From Vulcanimicrobiota bacterium (GTDB taxonomy: Bacteria; Vulcanimicrobiota; Vulcanimicrobiia; Vulcanimicrobiales; Vulcanimicrobiaceae): 64,000 bases of DNA. The notes under the pieces are model-generated. The model was not told where the DNA came from, did not search any database, and saw only the letters and a program-made list of their open reading frames with translations. Below are positions 7,110 through 27,363 of the stretch, piece by piece. The position numbers and the translations under genes were made by a program. The stretch is from positions 1-64,000 of the forward strand of contig JAAXCX010000002.1 of the NCBI GenBank assembly GCA_013036105.1, given 5' to 3'. Numbering within the stretch: position 1 is the first letter of the stretch; each line of letters starts with the position of its first letter.

Positions 7110-8504
7110 CTAATCCGTTTCCTCTAGCGACGGGTCGATCCAGTCCTCAGGAAATTCAATCTTTGCATCCACTCCAGTGTACTCTTTTAATAGGTACAGC
7201 AGTTGACTGCCAGGTATCAATTCAATCGGCTTATTAGAAGCAAATTCATATGCGGATTTCCCGTAGCCGCTCGTAGCCACAAGTATCCCCTTTGCGGCGC
7301 CTTCATTGTGCAACGTTCCGAAGAGATCTCGAACTGCTGAAACCCCAACCGTACGACGGTACCTTTTTGCCTGGATTATGACTTTGCCGCCAATAACCGG
7401 CCGCATGTCGTAGGCAACACAATCGACGCCTCCGTCCCGCGACGGCCTGGTCAATCGCGTCTCTAAGCCCATTTTTTCAAACAGGTTGGTCATCAGTGTC
7501 TCAAATTCGTTCGGCGTTAGGTCGGCGAGGTTGGCTCGTTGATCCAATTTCCGAAGTACATCGCCTTTCTCGACGAAACGAGGATCGACCATATCGAATT
7601 CGACGACCGGCTTTACCGGGATGAGCTCATGGGCACTACGAGAAACTTGCGCGCGCAGCCCCTTAATACACGCGACCGGATCGATCTTATATAAATTTAA
7701 CGTTGCAAATTCGTCTTTGCTGGTAACAACGGTTAAAAGGCACGGTCTGATGCGTTGCCCGGTGGCGGGGTCGGTCGTGCTAACAAAGCAACTCAAAGCT
7801 ACAGTGTCCAGAGCGCTCAATCCATCGCCGTGGAAAGCATTGAACAAGCCTCGTAACGCTAGCTGTGAAATCAGCCCCGTGTAAATCTCCTTAGAAGATG
7901 CCAGCGAACGCTTCACGGCGACTATCTCGTCGCCGGTCTTCTTGTAATGGAAGGCGGCTTCGTGCGGCACAATGTCGGCGTTAGGGCACTCTAGCTCGAC
8001 GACGAGCTGCCGTGACTCAACGACATAGGCGATTCTGCTGGCCACCAGTTCACCGGCAAGCGGTCGATCTGCATCGAAAACCAGTTGGAAATATGCGCCG
8101 ATCGCTATGGCATCCTTACGCGCGCATCCCGCCTCAAGGTCCTGGATAACTTTGGCCGCCGCCGCGTTCTCTTTGTCAACTTGCTCACATGCCTGCAAAT
8201 TTTGTTGCTGCAGGTCAGCGAGCTTTCGCGACCGTGCTCCGTCACGGGCGTGCCATTGCGTGTACGCTAGGTTGTATTTTTCCTCGGAAGCGGCTACCGC
8301 CGATTCATAATTTTTGCGGAACACGGGTATTGTACGTTCGAGCCATTGTGGCGGCCCTCGCTTGAAAGCTTCTCTCGCCGGCTCCGGCTCGACGACGTCG
8401 AGACCTTGCTGATCCAGGACCGGGTAAGGCTTGGGCTTGTAGAGTAACTTAAAGTCGATGGGCGCCGCGGGGTGATTAAGGGCTCGCGCGAGCACCGTTT
8501 CCAA
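7110..8504 (-). CDS. Mrr-type restriction endonuclease-like protein
   Basis: About 464 aa from a TTG at 8504. The last 125 residues form an Mrr catalytic domain: LTPNEFETLMTNLFEKMG, then RDGGVDCVAY, then VIIQAKRYRR, where D and Q-A-K are the active-site residues of this PD-(D/E)XK class. The rest is long and helical, matching a family of Mrr-tailed proteins. Reading on upstream in the same frame gives about 40 more charged, coiled-coil-like residues (to a TAG near 8636) that look coding but contain no good start codon. The true N-terminus is therefore uncertain or damaged. Likely DNA cleavage in defence. Confidence 0.75.
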   Translation of the reverse strand: METVLARALNHPAAPIDFKLLYKPKPYPVLDQQGLDVVEPEPAREAFKRGPPQWLERTIPVFRKNYESAVAASEEKYNLAYTQWHARDGARSRKLADLQQQNLQACEQVDKENAAAAKVIQDLEAGCARKDAIAIGAYFQLVFDADRPLAGELVASRIAYVVESRQLVVELECPNADIVPHEAAFHYKKTGDEIVAVKRSLASSKEIYTGLISQLALRGLFNAFHGDGLSALDTVALSCFVSTTDPATGQRIRPCLLTVVTSKDEFATLNLYKIDPVACIKGLRAQVSRSAHELIPVKPVVEFDMVDPRFVEKGDVLRKLDQRANLADLTPNEFETLMTNLFEKMGLETRLTRPSRDGGVDCVAYDMRPVIGGKVIIQAKRYRRTVGVSAVRDLFGTLHNEGAAKGILVATSGYGKSAYEFASNKPIELIPGSQLLYLLKEYTGVDAKIEFPEDWIDPSLEETD

Positions 8505-9935: not shown

Positions 9936-11459
9936 CTACTTCAGGCGCCCACCTCGTTTGATGATCTCGGCGATTAATCCCGACCGCCCGGGAACTCCGA
10001 AGGCTTTGAGGGCGGCTTTAATGTGATTTTGAACCGTTGATTCCGCGCGGCCTGTTTCTTCGCAGATCTGTCGTGTCGTTTTACCTTCGTATAGCATGCG
10101 GACAATCCGCGTCTGGGCGGCCGTCAGACGCGGCAGGTTTGTTTCTCGAGCTTCAACTTCTTCCCAGAGCCAGGTTCCGCGATAATTCTTAAGCTTGTCC
10201 TGCGCTCGAGAGTACCAATCTTCGTCTTTTGTTAGATCGTAAAGCCATAGAGCCGCTCGGCCGGCTCGCCAATCGTAACCTATTTCATCATACGTTTGCC
10301 ACACTCGCTGTAGTGTCTTCCTCGCAGCTTCGCGATTATCTAGGTTGATATCGATTACCGCAGCCGCATAATCCGCCAGCGCGCTGAGGCGCCGATCGTA
10401 TCGGAACAGAACGAGAGGACTCATCGCGTCGCGCAATTCAGAGAATTGTGCAAGATAGAATGCAGCCTTACCGGAATCGACCGGCGCAAAGAGCTCGGCT
10501 GCAAGCGTAAGCGCTACTCGCTCTTCGTCCAGGGTTTCGCGCCATCTGACGGACATGAGGAGATCGTCGGCCTCAGAGAGTTCGTCGGCCGACCAGCGGC
10601 TTTCACCGAAGCAACGAGCCAGGTATGCTCTATCGAGAAGTGTCATCGCGCGCCAAGGCACCGAGGGCGCTATTTTGCCGGCCATCTTTAAGTAGCGCAG
10701 TCCGTTAAAATAATCGCCTTCCAACGCATGGCACCATCCGACCGCCTTCAAAGTTTGGAACTGGTGCGCCCGAAAATCCTCGGTCCATGTCTGCCTCCCG
10801 ACGCGAGATTTCACAAACTTGCGAATGGATGGATCATCTAACTCGCGCGCCAGCATAGAAACAGTTCGCAGGGCGTGAATGCTCTCTTCAAAATAGTGTT
10901 GGCCAGACGCATCGATGAATTGCAGGAGATCGACGAGAAGTTTGGCCTCATCGTAGTACCGTTCTTCTTGACTTAAGATTCCAGTTTCCAGAAGGTCCCC
11001 GAAAACACGCGCATCAGAGCTCTTGAAAGGGCGAATCCTCCCGAGTTCCTCTCGTGCACGTTGCGGCTGCCGCTCCTCCAAGAAACGCCTTCCGCGCATG
11101 TACGGTAATTCAGCCGGAAATAAATTTCTCGCGCCCGCAAGTTCGGCGTGGGCAAAAAACTCATCCGCCTCGTCAAACCGATTTGTTCGCGATTGGGCTA
11201 CCGCCAGGAGCATCAGCCGCTCAGCCTCAAGCGCGTTATTCAGGTCGGTTGGCGGCGAGCTCAGCAATGCGATCGCGTGCGGATACTCTTGGGTTTTGAA
11301 GCTGATCCGCGCGCGAAGGAGGGTGGCCTCGAAAGGGACCTGACCGCTCGCACTGTCGTACAGCGCGGCGGCATCAGTATATCTAGCCTCCGCAAACGCG
11401 TGGCGCATCTCGAATTGCCCCGCGTCAGCCCGCCCGCGGCTAGCCGAAGTGGGTGCCAT
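9936..11459 (-). CDS. TPR-domain LuxR-type transcriptional regulator (cassette 1)
   Basis: 507 aa. About residues 15-435 are a helical repeat array of TPR type. Residues 440-507 are a LuxR/GerE helix-turn-helix (LTAAQTRIVRMLYEGKTTRQICEETGRAESTVQNHI). No receiver or kinase domain is present, so the input is probably a ligand or peptide bound by the TPR array. The protein is a close paralogue, end to end, of the regulator at 52852-54387. It sits 54 bases downstream of a tiny lipoprotein gene, with a perfect hairpin in between, and is divergent from the RiPP cluster starting at 12100, its likely target. The TPR receptor next to a short secreted peptide resembles RRNPP logic, though the HTH type differs. 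Confidence 0.85.
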   Translation of the reverse strand: MAPTSASRGRADAGQFEMRHAFAEARYTDAAALYDSASGQVPFEATLLRARISFKTQEYPHAIALLSSPPTDLNNALEAERLMLLAVAQSRTNRFDEADEFFAHAELAGARNLFPAELPYMRGRRFLEERQPQRAREELGRIRPFKSSDARVFGDLLETGILSQEERYYDEAKLLVDLLQFIDASGQHYFEESIHALRTVSMLARELDDPSIRKFVKSRVGRQTWTEDFRAHQFQTLKAVGWCHALEGDYFNGLRYLKMAGKIAPSVPWRAMTLLDRAYLARCFGESRWSADELSEADDLLMSVRWRETLDEERVALTLAAELFAPVDSGKAAFYLAQFSELRDAMSPLVLFRYDRRLSALADYAAAVIDINLDNREAARKTLQRVWQTYDEIGYDWRAGRAALWLYDLTKDEDWYSRAQDKLKNYRGTWLWEEVEARETNLPRLTAAQTRIVRMLYEGKTTRQICEETGRAESTVQNHIKAALKAFGVPGRSGLIAEIIKRGGRLK

Positions 11460-11474
11460 TGATCAGGTAGATTT

Positions 11475-11502
11475 GGTGGCGGGTCCCTCGGGACCCGCCA
11501 CC
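11475..11502 (-). terminator. Perfect hairpin between peptide and regulator genes (cassette 1)
   Basis: Two perfect 12-base arms (GGTGGCGGGTCC and GGACCCGCCACC) around a 4-base loop, placed between the peptide stop at 11513 and the regulator ATG at 11459. No T-run follows on the minus strand, so it may work as a processing or attenuation structure more than as a full terminator. The second cassette has an equivalent hairpin at 54403-54431. Confidence 0.7.
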
Positions 11503-11512
11503 GGTCTAGCCA

Positions 11513-11704
11513 CTATCGGCCGGGTAGAGTCCCGCCTCCGTCATCGGTAGGTGGAGGGGTCACGTCCTGAGCCGTTACCGGCATCGGGCGCGGCGCTAAC
11601 GTGGCTGGAACGAAGGCGCTCGTTGAATTTCGACTGGTGCAAGCAACTAGGCCGGAGCCCAGGAGTAGCGCGCTGAGTACGGTGAGGAGGAGACGTTTAT
11701 GCAT
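11513..11704 (-). CDS. Small lipoprotein peptide, candidate signalling peptide (cassette 1)
   Basis: 63 aa from the ATG at 11704. The signal sequence (MHKRLLLTVLSALLLGSGLVA) ends in a lipobox (L-V-A-C, Cys22), followed by a Ser/Thr/Pro-rich linker and the C-terminus PPPTDDGGGTLPGR. The partner at 54441-54614 has the same plan: LGSGLTAC lipobox and PPPPGDDGGTLPGHC end. Conservation of both the lipobox region and the TLPG tail in otherwise divergent peptides suggests a matured peptide. It could be cut from the signal sequence, as for enterococcal pheromones, or from the tail. The adjacent TPR-LuxR protein is the natural receptor candidate. Role is inference. Confidence 0.75.
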   Translation of the reverse strand: MHKRLLLTVLSALLLGSGLVACTSRNSTSAFVPATLAPRPMPVTAQDVTPPPTDDGGGTLPGR

Positions 11705-11736
11705 GTTGGGCGTCCTTTCATCCCCATGGCGGGGTG

Positions 11737-11760
11737 GTTCTAGCCTAAAACAGCTAGAAC
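11737..11760. repeat. Inverted repeat in leader of peptide gene 1
   Basis: GTTCTAGC and GCTAGAAC are perfect 8-base arms around an 8-base loop, 33 bases upstream of the peptide ATG. A second, CCCC/GGGG hairpin lies closer to the start codon (about 11722-11734). Peptide gene 2 has the same arrangement at 54654-54673. Likely a leader RNA structure or regulator-binding site. Confidence 0.55.
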
Positions 11761-11826
11761 GCACCCGTAGGACGCCACTACAGCAGGGGCCTATCGCCGA
11801 TGAAAAGTCCCGGCAACCTTTACAGT

Positions 11827-11844
11827 ATAGCTAGAAAGGGCTAA
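11827..11844. promoter_or_regulatory. 18-bp semi-palindromic element, copy 2, RiPP/peptide intergenic region
   Basis: ATAGCTAGAAAGGGCTAA matches core TAGCYRRAAAGGGCTR. It sits between the divergent peptide gene (start 11704, minus) and the RiPP cluster (12100, plus). On the minus strand a TATACT that could serve as a -10 box overlaps its edge. The stretch 11705-12099 otherwise contains the leader hairpins and a 51-codon open frame at 11910-12065 that I do not call as a gene. Confidence 0.55.
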
Positions 11845-12099
11845 TAACCCTGGACAGTGTCGATTTAGCCATGTTAGACTAGGGCTCCGGAATAATTAAC
11901 CGTCTGGCGATGGAGCGGCGATTGCAAGATGCGGGTGTTTCGAGCGCAACCTTTGAGACCAGCGGCGTCGATCACCGACATCCCTCGGCTTCACGGCTCA
12001 TCAGAACCACGATGGTGCTACGGCGCGACCGCGTTTGGTCCGGCCCAGCCTCCAGCGGATCTTAAATCTCCGCTGGATTGCTGAGAGGCAGCGTCTAGA

Positions 12100-13326
12100 T
12101 TGGTCGCCGGGGCCGGGAATAACGCAACTCATCTGTCGTCGCTTTGTTCGCCGACGTCTTGCCTGTACGAGACGCCCCACGCGAACGTCCCCGACGAAGC
12201 GCGCAGGCTTTTGTTCGAGCAAATTTCCAAGCGCGAGAGTAGATGGCATGAGGATATGTCAACTCTAAGCGACACTTGGCGGACACTTAACGCTGGAGCT
12301 CCCGGCATTGCCTACGCGCTATTGCATTTTTATCGATTGTCCGGTGCCAGCGCGTATCTTGTAAATGCGCTCCAACTGTGTGAGCTCCTCAGTCGTCATC
12401 TTTATGAACTTCAACTTCCTGATGAAGTAGAAATCGAAAGATACCCGACATCGCTCTTTCACTCGGAAACCGGGCTTTGGTGGGTGTGCGCCTTGTGCTA
12501 CTTGGAAGCCGGCGATTGGAAGAGATGCGAGAGCAGTCTCAAAAACTTCGTAAATTCGGCTTCATCGCCGACGCAGGTGTTAGATATCTCTCTCGGATTG
12601 GCGGGGACGCTTCTAGCATCGCTCAATCTTCGGGAAGCGCTTCTATCGAGCGGACAATCGAGTGCCATACTTGACGCCTTGATAAGTCGGCAGTCAATGG
12701 AGTTGGACTCGCGGCTTGCTTACGCGCTCGAACACGAAACGCATTCTCTCACAAAGACGTTTGCTCACGGTACGGCTGGAATTGCTTTTGTGCTCTTGCG
12801 CATCGCTAAGGACGGCAAGCCATCGGATCTAGTTTTTTCAGTACTGCGCTCTCTTTGGCTTGCCCGGACGGGAGATGAGATTTCTCTAGCGTTTCGGCTC
12901 TCTCCGGAGGCGGATGATACATCCTGGGGGCCGAGCAGCTGGTGCAATGGTGTAACCGGCGTCGTTCACCTTTACGTCTTGGCTTACCAGGTTCTAGGCG
13001 ATCCCGAGTATCTTGACATTGCTTCTCGTGCCGCATTCTTTGCTGGGCAGCAGACTCACGGCCATGCGACATCGATTTGCTGCGGCACTGCCGGACAAGC
13101 ATATGCCATGTTCTCGATGTACAATGCGACGCACGAGCCCGCTTGGAAACAACGTGGAATTGAGTTTTCTGAGCTCACCGCTTTGAGATTGTTAAACTTT
13201 TCTCAGAAATCGAGTAGCGACAGGGGCCTCTATAAGGGTGACCTAGGCGGCGGTCTGTTGGCAATTCAGTCTATGCAGCTCAGCCATCCAGAAATGCCAG
13301 TCATTTATCCAATAGAAAGGAGGTGA
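12100..13326 (+). CDS. LanC-like lanthionine cyclase
   Basis: 408 aa from a TTG; a stop lies just upstream, and the next ATG (12256) would remove part of the first helix. LanC enzymes add Cys thiols to dehydrated Ser/Thr on precursor peptides using a zinc ion. The family motifs are visible: AHG (His223, general acid/base), SWCNGVTG (Cys282) and ICCGTAG (Cys327-Cys328). The usual zinc ligands are Cys, Cys-His; here His is replaced by Cys, giving an all-Cys site as in ProcM-type LanM enzymes. It is followed four bases later by the first precursor gene, so it is first in the RiPP operon. Confidence 0.88.
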   Translation: MVAGAGNNATHLSSLCSPTSCLYETPHANVPDEARRLLFEQISKRESRWHEDMSTLSDTWRTLNAGAPGIAYALLHFYRLSGASAYLVNALQLCELLSRHLYELQLPDEVEIERYPTSLFHSETGLWWVCALCYLEAGDWKRCESSLKNFVNSASSPTQVLDISLGLAGTLLASLNLREALLSSGQSSAILDALISRQSMELDSRLAYALEHETHSLTKTFAHGTAGIAFVLLRIAKDGKPSDLVFSVLRSLWLARTGDEISLAFRLSPEADDTSWGPSSWCNGVTGVVHLYVLAYQVLGDPEYLDIASRAAFFAGQQTHGHATSICCGTAGQAYAMFSMYNATHEPAWKQRGIEFSELTALRLLNFSQKSSSDRGLYKGDLGGGLLAIQSMQLSHPEMPVIYPIERR

Positions 13327-13330
13327 TAGC

Positions 13331-13525
13331 GTGAAGCAAGCTTTCGATGCAATTGACTTAACGATGCAAACGGGAGGCGGTTCGGGCGCTTCTTGCACGG
13401 ACTGTACCGGTTGCACAGGCGGAACATGCCCCTACACGTCGTGTGGCAACTGCACGAACTGTTCCGTTTGTACATTGACTTGCGGTGGCGCAAGTTGCCA
13501 GGCGCATACTTCGGGAACAAACTAG
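13331..13525 (+). CDS. Lanthipeptide-type RiPP precursor 1
   Basis: 64 aa from a GTG with a full-consensus AAAGGAGGTGA ribosome site. The leader has AFDAIDLTM, similar to the F-N-L-D box recognised by LanB enzymes, then a Gly-rich junction (TGGGSG). The core holds 10 Cys (residues 22, 25, 28, 33, 38, 41, 44, 47, 51, 56) with many Ser/Thr, for example CTDCTGC and CTNCSVC. Leader identity with precursor 2 (FDAIDL at the same position) plus adjacency to LanB and LanC identify it as substrate. Core spacing is less regular than in precursor 2. Confidence 0.9.
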   Translation: MKQAFDAIDLTMQTGGGSGASCTDCTGCTGGTCPYTSCGNCTNCSVCTLTCGGASCQAHTSGTN

Positions 13526-13571
13526 TTACGAAACCTGGTCCTGATGATTTTCCTCGAAAGGAGGTGAAATC

Positions 13572-13772
13572 ATGAATCTGCCATTCGATGCAATCGATCT
13601 AAAAATGGGCACTGGTTTCGGTGGTATCGTTAACGATTGCACGGGATGCACCAACTGTTCGGCATGTACCGGTTGCACGGGGTGCTCGAACTGCAGCGGG
13701 TGTTCTAATTGCAGCCTAGACACGGGCGGTTGCGTGCAACCGTCAATGGGCGGACACACGACCACCAACTAG
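13572..13772 (+). CDS. Lanthipeptide-type RiPP precursor 2 with C-[ST]-x triplet core
   Basis: 66 aa from an ATG with an AAAGGAGGTGA ribosome site. Leader PFDAIDLKM is shared with precursor 1, then TGFGG as a possible cleavage point. From Cys23 to residue 49 there are nine uninterrupted C-[S/T]-x triplets (CTG CTN CSA CTG CTG CSN CSG CSN CSL), followed by a tenth Cys54 and a Thr-rich tail. Every Cys except the last is followed by a dehydratable Ser or Thr, an ideal but topologically crowded substrate for lanthionine formation. A metal-binding or thiazole-type fate cannot be excluded. Confidence 0.92.
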   Translation: MNLPFDAIDLKMGTGFGGIVNDCTGCTNCSACTGCTGCSNCSGCSNCSLDTGGCVQPSMGGHTTTN

Positions 13773-13885
13773 CGAAGCTCTGAAAAGGAAACCCATATGT
13801 TGACTTGATCGCGCTGAAGATCTACATGACTTCGGCGCGATATTTAACTCGTTTCGGACTTGAAAAGGCGCAACAAGGTAAATAC

Positions 13886-16800
13886 ATGCTTACAACCTCT
13901 TCGGAGACTACTGCCAGGCCTGAAGTCGAGACAGAATTCGTTCTAGCGAACCGCTTGTCGCTTTTTGGCAGAACATCCTATCTCCCAATTCGGGAAGCCG
14001 AACAGCTATTTTCTAACGGATCCTATATCGCGGCTTGCGGCGATCTGCTCCGGCGCCGCCCCGAACTGCTGACTGCAATACGAATTGCATCGCCTTCATT
14101 GGCGAACGCGGTCCTATCGTGGCTAGATGGGCACTCATTCAAGAATCGCAAAGGCGCTCTTAAACTGCTCATGTATCTGTTGCGTAGCGCAACACGTACG
14201 ACGCCGTTTGGAATGTTCTCGGGTGTCGGCGAAGTGCCATTTGGCGATCGCGCAACGCTGCAGATTAGCCCAAACGGTTGGCGAACGGTCACCCGCCCCG
14301 ACATGGGTTGGGCCTTAGCGGTCATCGAAAGCCTCTCCTCTGACGAAGATGCCTTTAAGCGGATGCGGCTCTATTCGAGCGATATGTTCATCCGGCGCGG
14401 CGAACGTGTGCATGTATTCAATCCGAAGACGGTCAGTCGTGATCCACACCGCATACCTGAATATGCGAGAATTTCGCTTCGCGAAACCGATGGGGTCCGC
14501 TTCATACTTGACCAATGCTCGAGCCCCCTTAGTGTAAGCGAGCTTACCGATCGATGCGCAAAACATTTTGACGCGGATCATGAACGAGCATTGCAATTCA
14601 TCAAGCAGCTGTATGACGCCGGGTTGTTGTTACCAGATTTTCGTCCATCGCCAATTGGGCGACCAGTTGAGCAGGTCCGCAATTCGTTAGCGGCGATAAG
14701 TGAGCAGCACTTAGAACAATTCGATTATCTTCTAAGTGAGGCGCATCGCTTTGATGCGATACCGAGCTTTGCCAAAGAGCAACCAACATTAAAGCGCTTA
14801 GAAGATCTTTGCGCGCAGCTTGGGAAGCCGCCAAACATGGACGTAGCGTTACAGGTCGACATGCAAGCGACATTCGACGGGACACTCCCGGCGTCACTCG
14901 AGAGTGACATTTGCATGTTGGCCCAACTTCATTTACGAACGTCCCCCCCGTCCACCGCACTGTCCGATCTAGTTGAGAGGTTTCGGCGCCGCTACGAAGG
15001 CTACGAGCGCCTTGTGCCCTTACTCGAGTTGGCGAGTCCTGACTTCGGGATTGGCGGCACACTTGTTCAGTCGGCGCCTTCGGCGCAGGACGAGCGTTAC
15101 AACAAACTTGCGCTGCTAGCGTCGTCCGCCATTGCGGCTCGCAGCGACGAGATAATGCTAAGCGAAGACTTGTTGGATAAGATACTATTACCAGCTCCTG
15201 CGAACGGTCGTGTCCCAAACGCTTTTCAAATCGCGTTTGAGCTGTTTGCCGGCGATAAGGAATCTATTGAATCCGGCAATTATCGTATATCCGCTTCGGC
15301 GCTCATCGGAACCAACGGTGCATACCGTACAGTCGGACGGTTCGCGTACTTACTCAGCGACGAATTTCGCGCGAACATTCGTGAGGCCGCAATTCGGGAA
15401 GCCGACTTAGACGTACCGACTGAACTCGTTTACCAATCGGCCTGGGCGAGGGGAATTAACGTTTCCACTCGTCCCCGAGTTGTTGATGCTGAGCTCTGTC
15501 TGGGCGTGCGAAGCGATGCTACGGTCGCGCTCAGCCCGCAGGACGTGTTAGTTGGCGTCCGGGATGGTAGGTTTTTCCTATGGTCTAAATCTCTTAGCCG
15601 AGTGCTATGCCTGCGCGAACGGCATGTTCTCAACACGACACAAAGCGCGCCATCGCTTATCCGGTTTCTCTCCGCTATAGCGAACGACGGGTACCTGTCT
15701 CCAAGTCCACTAGACTGGGGGCCAGCGAACAGTTTGCCGTGCTTACCGCGCCTTCGCTATGGCCGAATTGTTCTTTCGCGGAGACGTTGGCTTCTTGATA
15801 GGCAAGCGCTGGAAGAAAGCTCCGACAAGCGGACTTGGCTCGATGAGTGGCGTGCATTGTGGGGAGTACCTGACGATGTTTTTCTTGTGAGCGGAGACAA
15901 TAAGCTGTTCATTCGGTTGTCTCACGAAGTCGCAGCAGACTTACTGCTGCAAGGTAGTCGCGATCATCGGTCGTCGATGCTGTTCATTCAAGAAGCACCG
16001 CCAGCGACTGAGACTGCTTGGTTCGGAAGCTCCGCCGGCGCACACCGGCTCGAACTAGTCGCTACAATAGAAAAAACAAACCGAGCAGTTACATCAAGAG
16101 CCGTTCCGTCGACGATCGTAATCTCTAACGGCGAGCGCGTACGTACGCCCGCGAGTGATTGGATCTATCTGCGACTTTTTGTGGCCGAGCCGGAATTTGA
16201 GCGAGCTCTGTCATTTCTTCGCCCGATGATACAAGAGGCCGTCGCCGGCGGAGCAATCAAGTGGTTTTTCTTACGGTATTCTGAACCGCGCTCGCACATC
16301 CGCCTGCGTATTCAGGTTGATCGCAAGTGTAGGTCGGCAACCCTCGACTTGCTCACCGATTTCGTCGAGGATGCCGTCAGGAACGAGATTATCGAAGAGT
16401 ACGAATACGCCACTTACCAACGTGAATGCGAGCGTTATGGCGGAACGTTAGCGATGGATGTCGTGGAGGGTATCTTTCATCGGAACAGTGAGGAAATCAT
16501 AAACGCGCTCGCTAGAATCAGCGAGCCGGACTCCCAAAAGAAGCTCCACGCGACTATCGTACTGGCTCATCCTCTACTGCGCTCCCTGTTAGGCGAAGAA
16601 GGGACTAACGGCTGGCTTGAACGGTACGGCGTACGCAAGCGGAAGCTGCCGCCAAGTGACTGGGAAGCAATTAGGCGGCTCCGCAAGGAGTTCGTCGGAC
16701 TGGAGGGAGGCGACGTATACGATAGTCACGCGAAGGCTCTTCGTGCGTTAAAATCTGAGTCGGCGTTGTTTGGCGACTATCTAGAGATTTCATCGTCTAT

Positions 16801-16906
16801 TCTGCACATGCATTTCAACCGGTGTGGTATAGGCATGCATGAAGACTACGCCAGAACGCTTCTGAACACGACGTACTCAAGTCTGTTTGCACAGAGTAGG
16901 ACGTAG
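13886..16906 (+). CDS. LanB-type lantibiotic dehydratase (full length)
   Basis: About 1006 aa from the ATG at 13886 (AAGG upstream); an in-frame TTG at 13805 would add 27 residues. Residues 1 to about 640 match the glutamylating lantibiotic dehydratase domain (ANRLSLFGRTSYLP, LRSATRTTPFGMFSGV). The C-terminal domain, about 757-1000, matches the eliminating SpaB_C / thiopeptide-type domain (DWIYLRLFVAEPEFERAL, WFFLRYSEPRSHIRLRI, YQRECERYGG). It dehydrates Ser/Thr of the two precursors using glutamyl-tRNA. An SD-like AAAAGGAA before a three-codon frame at 13797 may serve initiation nearby. It lies 113 bases after precursor 2. Confidence 0.92.
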   Translation: MLTTSSETTARPEVETEFVLANRLSLFGRTSYLPIREAEQLFSNGSYIAACGDLLRRRPELLTAIRIASPSLANAVLSWLDGHSFKNRKGALKLLMYLLRSATRTTPFGMFSGVGEVPFGDRATLQISPNGWRTVTRPDMGWALAVIESLSSDEDAFKRMRLYSSDMFIRRGERVHVFNPKTVSRDPHRIPEYARISLRETDGVRFILDQCSSPLSVSELTDRCAKHFDADHERALQFIKQLYDAGLLLPDFRPSPIGRPVEQVRNSLAAISEQHLEQFDYLLSEAHRFDAIPSFAKEQPTLKRLEDLCAQLGKPPNMDVALQVDMQATFDGTLPASLESDICMLAQLHLRTSPPSTALSDLVERFRRRYEGYERLVPLLELASPDFGIGGTLVQSAPSAQDERYNKLALLASSAIAARSDEIMLSEDLLDKILLPAPANGRVPNAFQIAFELFAGDKESIESGNYRISASALIGTNGAYRTVGRFAYLLSDEFRANIREAAIREADLDVPTELVYQSAWARGINVSTRPRVVDAELCLGVRSDATVALSPQDVLVGVRDGRFFLWSKSLSRVLCLRERHVLNTTQSAPSLIRFLSAIANDGYLSPSPLDWGPANSLPCLPRLRYGRIVLSRRRWLLDRQALEESSDKRTWLDEWRALWGVPDDVFLVSGDNKLFIRLSHEVAADLLLQGSRDHRSSMLFIQEAPPATETAWFGSSAGAHRLELVATIEKTNRAVTSRAVPSTIVISNGERVRTPASDWIYLRLFVAEPEFERALSFLRPMIQEAVAGGAIKWFFLRYSEPRSHIRLRIQVDRKCRSATLDLLTDFVEDAVRNEIIEEYEYATYQRECERYGGTLAMDVVEGIFHRNSEEIINALARISEPDSQKKLHATIVLAHPLLRSLLGEEGTNGWLERYGVRKRKLPPSDWEAIRRLRKEFVGLEGGDVYDSHAKALRALKSESALFGDYLEISSSILHMHFNRCGIGMHEDYARTLLNTTYSSLFAQSRT

Positions 16907-16910
16907 GAAA

Positions 16911-18596
16911 ATGGCAACCGCGGGGTTTGTCTCACAGCTTCGGACGGCCAGATGGCGTCTTGCTCGAATAATTCCGTTCGCTCGACCGTATCGAAAACAT
17001 TTCTTCATATTGCTTGCCACATTGACGCTGATCTCGGGTCTAGGCGCTGTGTCCCCCATCATTATAGGACGCGTTGTCGATGTGCTTACTAGCCGGCGCC
17101 TCGGCGAATTACTATTTTTGGTGTCTGTACAGCTTGTCATAAGTCTCACTCAAGGTGCTCTTAGCTATCTGCACGGCAAGAATAGCATTTTATTCTCTGA
17201 ACAACTCGCGAGGGACATTCGCACGACTGTGGCGGAAAATCTGCGACACTCCAAAATTGAGCAGATCGTTCTTCGTCCATTGGGGGAGATTACAAATCGT
17301 ATCGACGGAGATGTTGAGGCCGTAATAGGAGCTATATTGAACGTTCTTCCGACGTTCGAGTCCGCTGTAAATGTGCTCCTGATGTTGGTTATCATGCCCT
17401 TTGTCAACTGGCGCCTGTCTCTCATCAGCCTGATTTTTGTTCCTGCGTGGTTTTTCCTAAGTTTTTCAAGCGCGCCGCGGTTCTCGAAACTACGCGAAGA
17501 ACTTAGTCGACGCCGCGATGGACTCGACACGATCATTACCGAAGATCTTAGCGTTGGAGGAATCGTCCGAGCCAAAATTACGGCGTGTTACGATCTGGCG
17601 CATGAACGGCTTCATGGCCAGTTAAACAAAGTCATCGAGGCGAGGCTCGCCTTAAATAGTATTAGTTGCCGCCTCAATCTTAGCCAAACTGCGTTATCCA
17701 GTATCGCTCCCGCCGCGGTGCTATTGTTCGGCGGATTCTTAGTAGCGCGCGGCGAGGCGACCGTCGGATCGCTGGTGACATTTCTTGGCTTACTCGGCCG
17801 GGTGTACGGACCTATTGCTGCGATCGCGGGAATACAAACACAAGTACTCGCCCTGGGTGGCATCTTTAGTAGAATAATCGAATTTCTCGATATTACGTTG
17901 GAGCGGCATGGTGAGATGAAGCCGCGTTCTTATGACGTCGAAATCGATAACGTTTCGTTTGGTTTCGGAGAGCGAACTATACTAAGTGGCATTTCAGTTA
18001 CCATTGCCGAGGGTGAACGGCTCCTGATAATGGGCCCCAGCGGTTGCGGTAAGACGACGTTGTCGCGTCTGATCGTAGGGTTGTATAGGCCCACCAGCGG
18101 CGAAATTCGCGTGGGCGGCTTACCACTCAACACGTTGGATATCAATGATTACCGGCGGAACATTGGATATGTCTCGCAAGACCACGTTCTGTTCACTGGA
18201 ACTCTCCGGGAGAACTTAACCTATGGCTTGGGCGTGTGCCCGGACCGACAGATTTGGGACATCTTGGCGACTTGCGAGCTGGATAGCGTGGTCCAGTCAT
18301 GGCCTTCTGGGCTTGATTCGATCATATCGAGCCAGGGCTCAGCCCTCTCCGGCGGCCAGCGGCAGCGAATAGCGCTTGCTCGCGCGCTTCTTGGGGGTCC
18401 GCGTGTCTTGATACTAGACGAAGCAACGAGTTCAGTCGATCCAAAGATGGAGTCTCGGATTGTAGGCTACATTTTGCAGCGCTTTCCAAAGGCGACAATT
18501 GTAGTCATCTCTCATCGACCATCAAACCTCCTAAGCGATGGTTCTGATTATACGACTCTCGATCTCGGATCTGTCGCGGAATACGCATATTCGTGA
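16911..18596 (+). CDS. ABC transporter, exporter type (transmembrane + ATPase)
   Basis: 561 aa from an ATG four bases after the LanB stop. About residues 1-320 form the six-helix exporter domain. The nucleotide-binding domain has Walker A GPSGCGKTT (about 374), signature LSGGQRQR (about 478) and Walker B VLILDEA (about 498). No N-terminal C39 peptidase domain is present, so leader removal must be done by another enzyme; none is seen in the cluster. Expected to export the modified peptides across the inner membrane. Confidence 0.9.
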   Translation: MATAGFVSQLRTARWRLARIIPFARPYRKHFFILLATLTLISGLGAVSPIIIGRVVDVLTSRRLGELLFLVSVQLVISLTQGALSYLHGKNSILFSEQLARDIRTTVAENLRHSKIEQIVLRPLGEITNRIDGDVEAVIGAILNVLPTFESAVNVLLMLVIMPFVNWRLSLISLIFVPAWFFLSFSSAPRFSKLREELSRRRDGLDTIITEDLSVGGIVRAKITACYDLAHERLHGQLNKVIEARLALNSISCRLNLSQTALSSIAPAAVLLFGGFLVARGEATVGSLVTFLGLLGRVYGPIAAIAGIQTQVLALGGIFSRIIEFLDITLERHGEMKPRSYDVEIDNVSFGFGERTILSGISVTIAEGERLLIMGPSGCGKTTLSRLIVGLYRPTSGEIRVGGLPLNTLDINDYRRNIGYVSQDHVLFTGTLRENLTYGLGVCPDRQIWDILATCELDSVVQSWPSGLDSIISSQGSALSGGQRQRIALARALLGGPRVLILDEATSSVDPKMESRIVGYILQRFPKATIVVISHRPSNLLSDGSDYTTLDLGSVAEYAYS

Positions 18597-19651
18597 GACC
18601 TACCGACCTTACGATAGCTGTAGTCAGTTTAGAGCGGAATTGGCTATTGTTTATTTCGGGATTTCTCATTTCATTTTGTGTTGCGCTAGCTGACACGCCT
18701 ATCGTAAGACGAATAGCCATAAGAGCAAACGCGATGGATTATCCATCGACGAGACGTTCGCACGTTTTGCCAACGCCGAGAGCGGGCGGTGTTGGCGTGG
18801 CCTTTGCATTTTATGCGGCTCTTTTCGTCGTGTTTCGTATTGCTTTGGCGCAAACTTCGGCTAACTTGCATCACCTCAGCCCCGAGATGCTGACAAACGC
18901 GCTACAAGTCACGAATAGTCAGCTGGCCATGGGCCTGGGTCTCGTAACCGGAGGGTTTCTCATTTGTGCGGTGGGTCTAGTCGATGATTTGCTGGATCTT
19001 AAACCGATAACCAAGCTCGTCGCGCAAGTTGCAATAGCCTTAATCGCGAGTACCAATAATTTACGCATAGCCGGGTTTCATATTCCCTGGACCCATACCT
19101 GGCTTGAATTACCTTTTTGGTTGTCCATCGTGCTTTCAGTGGCGTGGTTCATCGCGGTTATGAACGCTGTGAATTTCTTGGACGGACTCGACGGGCTAGT
19201 TACTGGATACGCGGCCATTGCTTCGTTTATGTTGTTTGCTGTCGCAGTTACGAAGGGCAACCTGGCGCTAGCAGTTATAGCAATCGCGCTAGCAGGGGCG
19301 CTCTGTGGGTTTATCCGTTACAACTTTAATCCGGCGAAAATCTTCTTAGGCGATTCAGGGTCACTGTTTATCGGCTTTATTTTGGCGAGCATCTCGATCT
19401 TGGGTGTAAGTAAGGGAGCCTTATCGATCAGTCTTCTGATACCACTGGCCCTCCTGGCCGTCCCCTTCGGTGACACAGCCGCCGCGGTAATTCGCCGACT
19501 TTGGGCCGGCGAGCATGTCTTTAGCGCGGATCGGCAGCATGTTCACCATCAACTTGTATACCGTTATGGCTTAAGTGTTCGTCAAGCCGTCCTGCTACTA
19601 TATGCTGTATGCTTTGTGCTTGGCGCCACCGCTCTGCTCATGGCGCGTTAG
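18593..19651 (+). CDS. WecA/MraY-family undecaprenyl-phosphate glycosyl-1-phosphate transferase
   Basis: 352 aa with a GTG overlapping the ABC stop by four bases (GTGA), so translation is coupled. A polytopic membrane protein of about ten helices with the family motifs: VDDLLDL, NAVNFLDGLDG, FNPAKIFLGDSGS and the basic HVFSADRQHVHH typical of WecA/TagO. These enzymes attach a sugar phosphate to undecaprenyl phosphate. Its place inside a RiPP operon is unusual: it may supply a lipid-linked sugar, provide self-protection, or be a passenger. Confidence 0.85.
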   Translation: MRPTDLTIAVVSLERNWLLFISGFLISFCVALADTPIVRRIAIRANAMDYPSTRRSHVLPTPRAGGVGVAFAFYAALFVVFRIALAQTSANLHHLSPEMLTNALQVTNSQLAMGLGLVTGGFLICAVGLVDDLLDLKPITKLVAQVAIALIASTNNLRIAGFHIPWTHTWLELPFWLSIVLSVAWFIAVMNAVNFLDGLDGLVTGYAAIASFMLFAVAVTKGNLALAVIAIALAGALCGFIRYNFNPAKIFLGDSGSLFIGFILASISILGVSKGALSISLLIPLALLAVPFGDTAAAVIRRLWAGEHVFSADRQHVHHQLVYRYGLSVRQAVLLLYAVCFVLGATALLMAR

Positions 19652-19663
19652 GTTACGGGCCAC

Positions 19664-22189
19664 ATGAGCTTCCGAACTCGACCGCATCATAAGGTTGTGG
19701 CTTCCGCCTTCTTAGACCTTATCGATCGCTTCGCTAAAGCTCAAATATCTAGACACGGAGCGAAGACCGGCGCTTTTCTTCGGTCGTTTCTGGTGTTGTT
19801 TTTGTTCTTTAACTTGGGAGGGTCGGCGATTGCCCAACAGTTAACGCCGGGTCAAATCACCGTCGTCGTTAACGACGCTGGGACCGGGAAAAACTTGGAT
19901 AACGCGAACGTTTTCCTCTTCGGAAGCGAAGGGTCGCAAAGTTCGATCACAAACGCGCTAGGGCGGTTGACATTTACGGATGTGGCGCCAGGCATTTATC
20001 GCGTGGAAGTTCGACGCGATAGCTATCAACCGAGTAAAATCGTTGAGATTGAAGTAAGCGAAGGGCAAAGCCTAAATGTGCTCGTCGCTCTCGCAAGCGT
20101 GCTCAAGACAATCGCCAGTGTGACCGTCCATCCAAGTGTCTCGGTTAACGTCGAAGAGATCAACAGCCAGAGCGCACAACAGAAGGTTTCGCAATCTCTC
20201 AGTGACGCACTAGCGAAACTCGCTGGAGTAAACCCTTACAATCAAACGTTTGGACCAGATTCGGCATTCAATGTGTCGCTCCACAACCATGATCCGAATC
20301 AAACGGGCTATTCGATTGATGGCGTCCGTATTAACGGACCATCGGATCAGTTGCTCGGAACGGCTCAATCTCTCTTCACTGGAGCAAGCGTGAACTTTTC
20401 TCCTGCGGCTGGCTATCTTGGCGGCACCATTAACTACAATACGCTTCGCCCAACGAAGACATGGACGTATAGCCTTCTGAATACGATCGGCAATTATGGT
20501 GCCGATCTATACTCGTTCTCCGCTACTGGCTCGCATAAGAAATTAGCCATGGCGTTTCAGCATGCATACAGCGGTCGTGATTCTTTTTTGAGCGGCCTTT
20601 CGTATGCGGATGAGAGCGGCCAGACCTACTTACACCAAGGGGGAAACTCGGCGATTGGGGATCTGCTAAAAGTAGACTACACGCTCTCTGATCGTACGTC
20701 GATCGGAATAAGCGGCATCCTAACCAATGCTACTTACGCCCCTATATGTTCAGCTTTCACCACCCTACTTCCATGCGGTTTCGGCCCTGGCACATCTGGA
20801 GCCTCACGTAATGGCTATGCGAACGTGCTCTTCCATGCTTTAGCCGGAAATGTACAGTTTGATGCATTCGCCGGCACAACATTCGGCTCTTATGAATATT
20901 CCGAGCCGTTGCGCGCGGTAGCCGGCGAAGTGTCGCCATATTTTAGCAGCACCACTTACTTCGGCCCTAGCTTTGGAGTCAGTGGCAGCATTAGTGCCAA
21001 GCGCCATACAGATGCATTCGGATTCTATGCGTCCAGTTTTCGATCCGACGGCACGCAAACGTTCAACGGAACACCAATTACGATTCCAACGCTTGTGACA
21101 AGGTACAACAATGTGTATCTTAGCGACAAAATTAAGGCAAGCGGAAGCCTCGCGCTGACGCACGGCCTAAGCTTGGCTTCAGGTACAGGATCTGGCAGTT
21201 CGATAGTGATTTCGGAAACGGCGGATTTTCAGCCTGCGCGCGATGATGTCTATGAGGCAGAGATCGATTTGGGGAGCGCCCAGCCGAACTATGGTTCCAA
21301 GACGCCGATAAGCGACCCGCTTAGCGCGGATTACGATTGCTACAACGGATCAACGTATGTCTATGGCCCCCCAGATGACCAAAGCCGGCAATCGTCGGTT
21401 AGCTACAATCTGTCTTGGCGGCATACTCTTCGCGGAGGATACGTTAGTTTAAAGTTGTACAAGCAGGACAGCTTTGGCCAGCAATACCGTGTTGCCGTGC
21501 CCATAGTAGCTGAGCCGCCTTCAGTTTTTCCAAACGGACTGGCGTCTTACCTACAGTCGTTACAACAAGCATGGAGTGAACCTACGGTCTGTGGCTCGCT
21601 CCCATTTAATGCCAGTCGCGTTTACGTGACCCAAGCCGTGAGCGGCCTTGGTCAAATCAATCAAGGAATGGATCTATCGGCTCAGTTTCAGATCGGGCGT
21701 AACGTCTTGCTCCTGCCGACGTATAGTGTTGGAAGCACCTATTTTTCCAGCATCGACGCTCGCCTGGGATATCCGGGAAGCGTCTATGGCGTTGGGTTGC
21801 AACTTCCCCGTAAGCCGCTGCACACCGGAGGTCTGATTGTGGATGGCGCGCTTGGCAATGGACGCCTAGAATGGTTGGCAAACGCGCAATATACATCAAT
21901 AAACAATCAGCAAAATCTCCCAGCCTATACGACCTTTAATGCTGGCTTAGTTTTCCACGCCAAGTTAGGTACGCTGACCCTGGTGGAATCGAACGTTTTT
22001 GGAACGCATAGCGGTTTTTTCACTACTTACGAAGGCGTGAACCCGATGCCGGTTGTGGGTGGAGGTACATTTGCGTTTTCCACGGTTCCACTTCCGCCGC
22101 GACAATGGACTCTAACCTGGCGCCTTCCCTGGACCGGTTCGCGTTCCGTGCCCCCGTCTCCAAGCGCCTCAAAATCGCCCTCTAACTAA
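19664..22189 (+). CDS. TonB-dependent receptor with carboxypeptidase-regulatory domain
   Basis: 841 aa. A long positively charged N-terminus precedes a signal (FLVLFLFFNLGGSAIAQ, cleavage near residue 58). Residues 64-140 form a carboxypeptidase-regulatory-like beta domain (ITVVVNDAGTGKNLDNANVFLF). A plug-like domain follows (about 150-260, SLSDALAKLAGVN...YSIDGVRI) and the rest is a predicted beta-barrel. It starts 12 bases after the phosphoglycosyltransferase and closes the RiPP operon. It could import or release the finished peptide or a cognate metal complex. The 227 bases after it (22190-22416) contain a GC-rich hairpin near ACGGGG...CCCCGT, a likely terminator. Confidence 0.85.
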   Translation: MSFRTRPHHKVVASAFLDLIDRFAKAQISRHGAKTGAFLRSFLVLFLFFNLGGSAIAQQLTPGQITVVVNDAGTGKNLDNANVFLFGSEGSQSSITNALGRLTFTDVAPGIYRVEVRRDSYQPSKIVEIEVSEGQSLNVLVALASVLKTIASVTVHPSVSVNVEEINSQSAQQKVSQSLSDALAKLAGVNPYNQTFGPDSAFNVSLHNHDPNQTGYSIDGVRINGPSDQLLGTAQSLFTGASVNFSPAAGYLGGTINYNTLRPTKTWTYSLLNTIGNYGADLYSFSATGSHKKLAMAFQHAYSGRDSFLSGLSYADESGQTYLHQGGNSAIGDLLKVDYTLSDRTSIGISGILTNATYAPICSAFTTLLPCGFGPGTSGASRNGYANVLFHALAGNVQFDAFAGTTFGSYEYSEPLRAVAGEVSPYFSSTTYFGPSFGVSGSISAKRHTDAFGFYASSFRSDGTQTFNGTPITIPTLVTRYNNVYLSDKIKASGSLALTHGLSLASGTGSGSSIVISETADFQPARDDVYEAEIDLGSAQPNYGSKTPISDPLSADYDCYNGSTYVYGPPDDQSRQSSVSYNLSWRHTLRGGYVSLKLYKQDSFGQQYRVAVPIVAEPPSVFPNGLASYLQSLQQAWSEPTVCGSLPFNASRVYVTQAVSGLGQINQGMDLSAQFQIGRNVLLLPTYSVGSTYFSSIDARLGYPGSVYGVGLQLPRKPLHTGGLIVDGALGNGRLEWLANAQYTSINNQQNLPAYTTFNAGLVFHAKLGTLTLVESNVFGTHSGFFTTYEGVNPMPVVGGGTFAFSTVPLPPRQWTLTWRLPWTGSRSVPPSPSASKSPSN

Positions 22190-22416
22190 GCTACATTGCT
22201 TCGGCGTGCCTTGTCAGAACGGGGAACCCCCCGTACCGAAAATCAGATCGTGGCCAGCTCAGCAGAGATGTCGCATCTTTAGCGTGCGCGAGTAGGTCGA
22301 GCTCTTTCCCGAAAAGGCCGAGTGCGAGGCGGGGTTCAGGGAGACATCAACGCACTACTCGCTGTCGAATAAAAGCCTGAGAAAAGCATGCCGCGACCAA
22401 CCCCAAAGCGTACCGG

Positions 22417-23691
22417 CTATTCTAAGAGCCGCAGTTTGCCATCACCCGATTGTTTGCTGCTCAGTGTAGCGTATTCGCCGCCGCGCTCAAGAAGAGCATG
22501 AACGCGAACGTTTATGGCCGTTACGCCGAAGGAAGCTTCTAAAGGAAGACCCGCGTCAATGTTCGCAGATCGATACAAGTCACCGCATTGGAACATATAG
22601 CTGTCAAGTAGAGCAGGCCCATTTGCCAGCCGCAAGTAGCTTGGCTTTTGCAATGGAATCCCCGCCGGCACCGTTAGGTGGAGCTCAGGGCGCTGGAGTC
22701 CTGCCCGCCCGAAGCGCGCAATATAGTGCGAAAGAGCGGTTCGCTCTTCGTCAATTAGCATGGCTGGTTGATAGAAAAACACTTCGTCAACTGGCCCGTC
22801 CGGGTGTCGATGGAGATAATCAACCGCCCAGGCCTCTAGATGTGGAATGCTCGCGGAATCGTCTACGCGAACACAAACTATCGCTGCATTCGCCGTCTGG
22901 CCGGCGAGCTGTGCGCTCACTTGACCGATTTGCTCTTCGAGCTTCCCGTGATAGATTTGAATCTCATTTGGATGGAAGGGAACAATAGCGATCATTTGGC
23001 TCGATACTACTGCCGAGGAAATCCAAACCGGTTGCGGTTGCCAGAGAATATTCCAAGGTTCAATCTGATTCATCAGAAGCGTTCGTGAGCTCCCGTTATC
23101 CACGTTTGTGCAAAGAACCCGCTCGAGACGCAACCAGTCCTCTTTTGTTGGCCATCTTGTTGCCTCCGCCAAAACGCCGACCCACGGCACGCCATGCTGC
23201 CGCGCGACTTCTCGAGTTCTTTGCAATGTGCGCATTCCGAACTCGTCGACATCTCGCGCGTATCGCGTTCTCCCGAAGTTCTTGATCGATACGAGAGCTT
23301 TTTGGTTTGCCGCGAATTCAAGGTGCCCATCGTATCCGCGAGTGTTTGGCGGCGCCGGCACTAGCCGATGCGCTTGGCCGGCAAACATTGCAAGTCCGAG
23401 AATCTCAAAAATTGCGCCACGCCGGTTGTTTGCATCCTTACCGCGAGCTTTAACAATCTGATCGGTCACCCATACGCGATCGATTGCATCCATGGTCTCG
23501 AGCGCCATCCCAAGCCAGTGCAGCTCGAGGCGGGCTTGCAATTCGTTGCTTTGCCATAGACTCTGGAGCGGCGACTTAGCGGGCGATTGGATGAGCCAGT
23601 CCCGACCGAAGTGAGCCTCGACAGTCGCAAGTGCGGCCTGCAAGCGTTCCTGTGGTATATCCCACGGTGCGTAAGGGGCGTTGGCAGTCAC
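22417..23691 (-). CDS. Putative PD-(D/E)XK-type nuclease-like protein
   Basis: 424 aa. The segment GAIFEILGLAMFAGQ (Glu), RGYDGHLEF (Asp) and ALVSIKNFG (lysine after a beta strand) follows the E...D...x-x-K pattern of restriction-like nucleases, although the core is not canonical. The C-terminal half is unassigned. It has 130 bases of free sequence upstream. It may be a solitary defence nuclease. I do not recognise a named family. Confidence 0.45.
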   Translation of the reverse strand: MTANAPYAPWDIPQERLQAALATVEAHFGRDWLIQSPAKSPLQSLWQSNELQARLELHWLGMALETMDAIDRVWVTDQIVKARGKDANNRRGAIFEILGLAMFAGQAHRLVPAPPNTRGYDGHLEFAANQKALVSIKNFGRTRYARDVDEFGMRTLQRTREVARQHGVPWVGVLAEATRWPTKEDWLRLERVLCTNVDNGSSRTLLMNQIEPWNILWQPQPVWISSAVVSSQMIAIVPFHPNEIQIYHGKLEEQIGQVSAQLAGQTANAAIVCVRVDDSASIPHLEAWAVDYLHRHPDGPVDEVFFYQPAMLIDEERTALSHYIARFGRAGLQRPELHLTVPAGIPLQKPSYLRLANGPALLDSYMFQCGDLYRSANIDAGLPLEASFGVTAINVRVHALLERGGEYATLSSKQSGDGKLRLLE

Positions 23692-26493: not shown

Positions 26494-27363
26494 TTACATC
26501 CCAAGCCTAGCGACGACGTCGATTTGCTTCAGTTGCAACCTTGCCTGTAGTTGGCGCACGGCGCTCGCTCGAGAGTAACCCTGCTGCCGCATGATCGCAT
26601 ACTCTTCGGCGCCGCGGTTCGTCGCGGCAACCATCATGCCGGCGCGCAACGACGTCATTGGACGCCGCGTTATTCCGGCGTTCCTACAACGGAAACTTAT
26701 CGCGCCCTCACCACGCCGCAGGCCCAGTCTACGGGTCGTGATCCGTCCGTGCCAGCATGCGCGAATGAGCGCAGGCTCTTCGTCATCGAGCCGTCGTAAA
26801 TAACGCTCCATAGCCGAAACCACGCAATAGCGAGTGTCGTGATACCGACCAAAGGTAACGGGCCGCTTGCGCCTCCCATACCAGACATCCAGCACCATTC
26901 CGCGCGGATCGATGCGGACGTCGCCGCGATCGAGCTTTGCCATTGCCGGCGACGACACTCGACCACTATAGGATAGCAACACGAGCAGCTTATCTCGGGC
27001 TCCCCGGGGCGAATCTGGAATGCCGTTGATGACTGTAGCCAAATCATGCGTCAGGCATGGACTGATGTCGGGCACGCGACAGCGGCGCTGCGCTCGGCGC
27101 AGCTCGTCGAGCAGCGCTTCGTCCGCCGGATCATCGACGCCGGCTTCCAAATGCCAGCGCCGCACGGCCGCGACAACATGTCGTAGTGTGCCCGCCGTGA
27201 CACGCGCGGGCATATCTCCAATGTAGGCGCGGAGCGCTTCGACCGTCGTCGGTAGAACTGGAAATGAATGCTGCGCGCAATAACGCTCCCAGTTGCGCAG
27301 GCAGTCCGACTCGTTCTTGCGAGATTTCGGGCTGAGCGCAGCCAGGTGCAGAAGGGCTTTCAC
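26494..27363 (-). CDS. Tyrosine-recombinase-like protein lacking the catalytic tyrosine
   Basis: 289 aa. Start GTG at 27363 overlaps the stop of the upstream recombinase gene (GTGA), so the longer open frame upstream is discarded. The N-terminal SAM-like core-binding domain (KSRKNESDCLRNWERYC...) and the catalytic fold (ARDKLLVLLSYSGRVSS, RRPMTSLRAGMMVAAT, QQGYSRASAVRQLQ) are recognisable. The C-terminal position normally occupied by the nucleophilic Tyr holds Leu, and the H-x-x-R motif is degenerate. Probably a catalytically dead partner of the upstream recombinase. Confidence 0.65.
   Translation of the reverse strand: MKALLHLAALSPKSRKNESDCLRNWERYCAQHSFPVLPTTVEALRAYIGDMPARVTAGTLRHVVAAVRRWHLEAGVDDPADEALLDELRRAQRRCRVPDISPCLTHDLATVINGIPDSPRGARDKLLVLLSYSGRVSSPAMAKLDRGDVRIDPRGMVLDVWYGRRKRPVTFGRYHDTRYCVVSAMERYLRRLDDEEPALIRACWHGRITTRRLGLRRGEGAISFRCRNAGITRRPMTSLRAGMMVAATNRGAEEYAIMRQQGYSRASAVRQLQARLQLKQIDVVARLGM

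Follow-up and report, generated by a model that had tools for sequence, protein, structure and literature searches.

A predicted lanthipeptide precursor containing nine unbroken C-[ST]-x triplets, encoded between a three-cysteine LanC-type cyclase and LanB in Vulcanimicrobiota

The 64,000-nucleotide window analyzed here (the whole stretch, positions 1 to 64,000 of contig JAAXCX010000002.1, from a Vulcanimicrobiota bacterium) carries on its forward strand a tight series of genes in the order lanC, precursor 1, precursor 2, lanB, exporter, WecA/MraY-family transferase and TonB-receptor-like gene (Table 1). The two open reading frames (ORFs) between lanC and lanB encode small cysteine-rich peptides with a common leader, and comparisons of their sequences give good support for reading them as the precursor pair of a class I-type lanthipeptide system. 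For comparison we used 149 genomes of the phylum, which is Vulcanimicrobiota or, by its older name, Ca. Eremiobacterota. Protein comparison agrees with this origin: a second WecA-like protein encoded in the genome shares 59-64% identity with its counterparts in four Candidatus Eremiobacterota MAGs but only 37-40% with those in one Acidobacteria and one Actinomycetota MAG, which makes this phylum the most likely source of the window.

Table 1. Features of the putative lanthipeptide locus and its immediate surroundings, in positions of the window.
Feature	Positions	Strand	Evidence and remarks
TPR and LuxR-type regulator, upstream	9936..11459	-	Pfam GerE, Sigma70_r4_2; possible regulator, membership uncertain
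Free-standing cyclase of the LanC type with a predicted three-cysteine (CCG) zinc site	12100..13326	+	Pfam LANC_like 1.3e-31
Precursor peptide 1	13331..13525	+	Ten Cys, leader FDAIDL, longest C-[ST]-x run three triplets; translation, Shine-Dalgarno AAAGGAGGTGA
Precursor peptide 2	13572..13772	+	FDAIDL leader, nine C-[ST]-x triplets in a row, 10 Cys; translation, Shine-Dalgarno AAAGGAGGTGA, pattern and shuffles
Stem-loop between precursors and lanB	13808..13842	+	Fold of 13773-13885: minimum free energy -30.9 kcal/mol, z = -3.1
LanB dehydratase, glutamylation and elimination domains	13886..16906	+	Pfam Lant_dehydr_N 3.8e-123, Lant_dehydr_C 1.1e-34; listed ORF opens TTG 13805
ABC exporter (transmembrane and ATPase)	16911..18596	+	Pfam ABC_membrane, ABC_tran
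Extra WecA/TagO/MraY-family sugar-phosphate transferase	18593..19651	+	Pfam Glycos_transf_4 2e-42; candidate immunity gene
TonB-receptor-like outer-membrane protein	19664..22189	+	Pfam CarboxypepD_reg, Plug; 12 bases downstream of WecA-like gene; membership uncertain

Precursor 2 is a 66-residue ORF that translates as MNLPFDAIDLKMGTGFGGIVND CTG CTN CSA CTG CTG CSN CSG CSN CSL DTGGCVQPSMGGHTTTN, which in compact form is MNLPFDAIDLKMGTGFGGIVND-CTGCTNCSACTGCTGCSNCSGCSNCSL-DTGGC followed by the remaining residues. A first-pass annotation had reported nine consecutive C-[ST]-x triplets in this ORF, and these were borne out both by the translation, where they run unbroken from C23 to L49, and by comparison with chance, since shuffling these core residues 200,000 times gave a longest run of five. 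At the DNA level, a four-triplet pattern matched five times in precursor 2 and not once in dinucleotide shuffles of the window. The annotation also had the run ending with a tenth Cys; ten Cys are present, but the tenth (C54) sits after LDTGG, five residues past the triplets. Because silent positions vary between repeats, with mixed TGC/TGT, ACG/ACC and TCG/TCT/AGC codons, the register of the triplets is kept at the protein level and does not reflect a recent tandem duplication of DNA.

Precursor 1 (VKQAFDAIDLTMQTGGGSGASCTDCTGCTGGTCPYTSCGNCTNCSVCTLTCGGASCQAHTSGTN) has triplet runs that reach only three, and it too has ten Cys. The FDAIDL motifs of the two genes, which are the only two occurrences in the genome, differ by three synonymous changes and no amino-acid change, the tails (HT..TN) are similar, and the same Shine-Dalgarno sequence precedes both ORFs. 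What is conserved between the copies is the leader and the number of Cys, whereas the cores diverge.

Evaluating the enzyme next to these ORFs revealed a dedicated LanB with both domains of a class I dehydratase and conserved catalytic residues. Aligned to NisB (4wd9) and to 5ehk, it keeps R127, R131, T133, D166, D352, R512, R824, E874, R877 and H1001/H1003, which cover both the glutamylation and the elimination positions. The functional NisB residues R87, T89, D121, D299 and R464 used in this alignment are cited in PMC7296275. LanB matches occurred in 16/149 genomes of the phylum, with the best full-length ones at 30-35% identity.

The leader links the precursors to LanB beyond this one locus. 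About ten more small, Cys-rich, LanB-adjacent ORFs in six genomes (G100, G042, G088, G060, G122 and G124) carry a leader of the form F[DE]x[ILV]DL, and eight of these were aligned with the window pair. Their leaders read MFEDIDLKIG..., MFEELDLKIG..., MFEDVDLRIA... and MFDDIDLSIG..., along with the FDDLDL array of G122, and the ORFs have a plausible ribosome site, 5-8 Cys and Thr-rich cores without the triplet register; an MFEPVDL ORF with a single Cys (locus L025) is a doubtful member. Because this leader type recurs beside LanB, which we regard as the main evidence, both modification of the precursors and the class I-type lanthipeptide reading are well supported, and an FxLD-like leader (FDAIDL) with a Ser/Thr/Cys core adjoining LanB is what class I systems have. 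The earlier proposal that precursor 2 is a ribosomally synthesized and post-translationally modified peptide (RiPP) precursor acted on by LanB and LanC is well supported by the shared leader type, the position between lanC and lanB and the intact LanB residues. More broadly, this largely uncultured phylum would appear to hold its own set of FEDIDL-leader lanthipeptides.

Other members of the phylum showed further arrangements near LanB. One locus (L031, 8619-10842, in G122) holds at least five Cys/Thr-rich precursors with FDDLDL/FEDLDL leaders, an unusually large class I set. In G145 and G148, a 129-residue ORF near a LanB homologue (L032, 12758-13147, minus strand; L033, 13536-13925, plus strand) begins with a twin-arginine translocation (Tat)-like signal (RRSFVKGLAGAAFLASALG), followed by EFDLDLDL and 16 Cys, many right after Ser/Thr, and is possibly a lanthipeptide-like substrate that leaves by the Tat route.

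The precursors had no significant match in Pfam, NCBIfam, PDB, plasmids or phages, with a weak PHROG 15341 match of precursor 2 covering only the repeat (residues 21-48, E 0.0056). That phage family was exposed by a four-triplet scan of viral contigs, which was otherwise swamped by DNA repeats in other frames. Its proteins (L096 2141-2791, minus; L113 3751-4737, minus; L086 3803-4486, plus; L137 349-1203, minus) keep an N-terminal domain, ANGNR.SVE.FGS...LDSL, followed by dozens of C-[ST]-[NDGR] triplets in runs such as CTNCTNCTNCTNC and CSDCSGCSDC. The window peptides could by this analogy be unmodified Cys-rich repeat proteins that lie beside LanB and LanC by chance, an explanation we hold to be very unlikely, as precursor 2 shares the repeats without the phage domain (ANGNR.SVE.FGS), the window peptides instead have a LanB-type leader, no LanB/LanC motifs were found near the phage genes in the viral contig stretches examined, and the window ORFs are precursor-sized and present in two copies between lanC and lanB. 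Nevertheless, Cys-x-x repeats alone do not imply lanthionine.

Searches for a closer relative covered 84,980 species genomes with a leader-plus-core pattern, and among the 108 stretches returned there was no in-frame LanB-type precursor. Four Eremiobacterota stretches looked promising at first, but their match lengths were out of frame, and a loose three-triplet pattern run across the phylum gave mostly chance readings. Because the leader-plus-core pattern fixes Phe as TTC and demands three triplets in a row, looser relatives could be missed. The search that the first-pass annotation had proposed, for an FDAIDL-type leader joined to a C-[ST]-x core, thus gave no convincing relative, and the leader type alone recurs beside LanB. 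No literature joining lanthipeptides with CxxCxxC, or treating the LanB clusters of the phylum, was found in a search that left most subscription journals outside. Within that literature the statement that no described lanthipeptide is so regular held, with the qualification that heterocycloanthracin is known to contain Cys-x-x repeats (PMC2674419) and that the phage proteins have C-[ST]-x repeats. The repeats themselves are therefore not new, and what is unusual is the core, with 10 Cys vs at most 8 in the relatives, and the type of cyclase.

The cyclase was left unmentioned in the first-pass annotation and is unusual in itself, both in its CCG type and in the kinase-LanC clade to which its sequence assigns it. 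It is a separate protein of 408 residues, as in class I systems, whose true start may lie downstream of the listed TTG. Its motifs are WC282NG, IC327C328G and H223 in AHG, such that the His of AHG is kept along with the positions of the Cys ligands, and the CHG of human LANCL2 aligns to its CCG, with the His there being Cys in the window LanC. ICCG thus replaces the ICHG of the class I CCH/CHG zinc triad, which the phylum's seven LanCs located next to a LanB all retain (7/7 WCYG and CHG). These seven were too distant for phmmer to reach any of them with the window LanC. The closest relatives were instead kinase-LanC fusions in a genome of the same family (G037) and in Paenibacillus peoriae, which share the WCNG and CCG motifs, and in a 12-row tree these two and the window LanC form one group with support of 99/97. 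The best NCBIfam model was class IV LanL, below a curated cut-off that is set for the entire three-domain enzyme. Judging from this grouping, the partner of the class I dehydratase appears here to be a cyclase from the kinase-LanC side.

Such a pairing could also be a mismatch, in which the cyclase was acquired from a kinase-LanC system, with the cluster either degenerating or acting on a different substrate. The window LanC is indeed unlike the other LanB-adjacent LanCs of the phylum and occurs in one genome only of its genus, yet the long ORFs are intact, the catalytic residues conserved, the gene order tight and both precursors equipped with a strong Shine-Dalgarno sequence and a conserved leader, all of which makes this explanation highly improbable. 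With C282, C327 and C328 as presumed zinc ligands and LanB about 0.5 kb downstream, the locus has the B-CCC combination (LanB with a CCC cyclase), which a survey (PMC11251773) found for 2 predicted peptides vs 194 for B-CCH, its Type I. The same survey describes ProcM-type CCC cyclases as more reactive, and a LanB with a free-standing CCG cyclase would test outside LanM enzymes whether three-Cys zinc raises reactivity and tolerance. The kinase-LanC fusion loci themselves, with WCNG/CCG motifs and unannotated upstream ORFs (L072 5708-9746 in G037; L310 3523-8068 on a P. peoriae plasmid), may represent an L-CCC-like lanthipeptide system.

Around these core genes, the strong stem-loop at 13808-13842 makes ATG 13886 a more likely start for LanB than TTG 13805. 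A T-run terminator was looked for at this stem-loop and not found, and the structure is possibly an attenuator or a processing site; placed where it separates the precursor genes from the enzyme gene, such a stem would be in keeping with unequal expression of the two. No Rfam elements were found in 11000-23000. Homologues of the exporter adjoin LanB at four loci (L022, L023, L024 and L028), and Pfam found no C39 peptidase domain in the window exporter. The start of the transferase gene overlaps the exporter stop (GTGA). This transferase is 47% identical to a chromosomal paralogue on contig C12 and is an extra copy found in this genome only within the genus, other members with a match having one copy (46-48% identity). 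Those single copies resemble this genome's other copy, the neighbor of a UDP-GlcNAc 2-epimerase-like gene (recognized from its sequence by eye). An extra WecA/TagO-like gene would fit self-protection of a cell-envelope target and is a candidate hint at what an antibacterial product might attack.

The TonB-receptor-like gene bears on another explanation, namely that few Ser/Thr are dehydrated and that the many free Cys bind soft metals (Cu, Zn, Fe) in a RiPP-type metallophore or buffer, with uptake possibly through this receptor. Ten Cys in CxxC spacing and a receptor gene starting directly behind the WecA-like gene would suit such a role. However, the nine triplet Ser/Thr stand near one to one with the ten Cys, as thioethers would need, no metal transporter or sensor was recognized, and the receptor family is found widely across the genus with no link to LanB, only one other LanB locus (L029) having a member. 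Because the family is so widespread, the idea is weakened, and we consider it unlikely.

The upstream TPR and LuxR-type regulator has a homologue near LanB at L023, and genomes of the genus carry it in several copies each. The cluster has a GC content of 52-54% vs mostly 55-59% around it and a phage-type integrase gene lies nearby (27360-28343, minus strand), so acquisition by transfer is possible; together with an Mrr-type restriction endonuclease (7110-8504, minus) and a family-less 424-residue protein (22417-23691, minus), the integrase possibly marks a genomic island. A candidate radical SAM enzyme was one motif match only, in a 93-codon frame that is not a gene.

Taken together, these observations make it quite probable that the locus encodes an unusual variant of class I lanthipeptide biosynthesis whose product has about 8-10 thioether bridges per chain. 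LanB would bind the FDAIDL leader, glutamylate the Ser/Thr within the C-[ST]-x triplets and then eliminate them to dehydroalanine and dehydrobutyrine, after which the free-standing CCG cyclase would add Cys thiols to give a compact peptide; the ABC transporter would export the product, and some protease would cut the leader. Several points weigh against this. The LanC is divergent (best identity in the tree 26%), the scan of 84,980 genomes turned up no relative of the locus whose core resembles this one, no protease gene, including C39, was recognized near the cluster among the locus proteins scanned, and C-[ST]-x repeats also occur in proteins without lanthionine enzymes. In addition, each repeat Ser/Thr is just two residues away from the Cys that follows, closer than is usual in known lanthipeptides (PMC11251773).

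The ring pattern depends on how the cyclase treats that spacing. By the usual rule, a Cys pairs with the nearest preceding free Ser/Thr at least three residues away (PMC11251773), and applying it gave ten bridges with eight crossings for precursor 1 and, for precursor 2, eight bridges (T51-C54 and seven from i to i+5) with six crossings, leaving C23 and C26 free. With i to i+2 links allowed, precursor 2 forms nine uncrossed bridges. The i to i+5 bridges would interlock as a ladder, the alternatives being rings that each close separately from i to i+2, or rings between neighboring Cys and Thr of the kind known from mersacidin. We tentatively put forward, as a more specific and rather doubtful version, that LanB and a hyper-reactive three-Cys cyclase build a continuous ladder of 8-10 interlocked rings, with the number of rings set by the number of repeats and the WecA/TagO-like enzyme giving self-protection. 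If fully cyclized, the repeat would exceed the maximum of seven bridges in characterized lanthipeptides (PMC11251773) and would offer a simple substrate, programmable in that each triplet yields one ring, with which to examine how a cyclase chooses between adjacent, i+2 and i+5 closure.

Among known systems, heterocycloanthracin/sonorensin (TIGR03601) is alike in being a RiPP precursor with repeated Cys-Xaa-Xaa triplets, which are read as thiazole peptides (PMC2674419), and the Cys of precursor 2 might by analogy be heterocyclized to thiazol(in)es. There, however, the chemistry is of the cyclodehydratase type, the maturation genes are usually distant and Ser/Thr is not fixed at position 2, whereas precursor 2 matches the model very weakly (9.9 bits vs a cut-off of 35, E 1.1) and the proteins scanned around the locus include LanB and LanC and no YcaO/cyclodehydratase or dehydrogenase, such that heterocyclization is barely credible. 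The PHROG 15341 proteins are alike in their long triplet runs and differ in their N-terminal domain and their length of about 150-330 residues. CCC-type cyclases (ProcM-like D-CCC; L-CCC; B-CCC of PMC11251773) share the three-cysteine zinc site by motif, but ProcM is fused to DUF4135, whereas the window cyclase is not fused and groups with the kinase-LanC fusions (WCNG...CCGxAGQA); the published B-CCC cases are likened to the window pair by this motif combination. A ProcM-like D-CCC system with genome-scattered precursors was rejected, since LanB takes the place of DUF4135 and the genome has no further FDAIDL genes. With class I lanthipeptides of the nisin and geobacillin I type, the locus shares a full-length LanB, a LanC-family cyclase, an FxLD-like leader and an ABC exporter, and it differs in a CCG rather than CHG cyclase distant from the class I LanCs of the phylum and in ten Cys set in triplets. 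The nearest counterparts are the FEDIDL/FDDLDL precursors of the phylum, which are alike in leader, size, LanB neighbor and Cys/Thr-rich core, with that of G088 (HTCHCTNTCKSCQTCTCTFPCTLDAC) coming nearest in density. Those precursors have fewer Cys, no triplet register and CHG wherever a LanC was found, and the window pair, as predicted from its translations, is the most Cys-rich core within this LanB-tied leader family.
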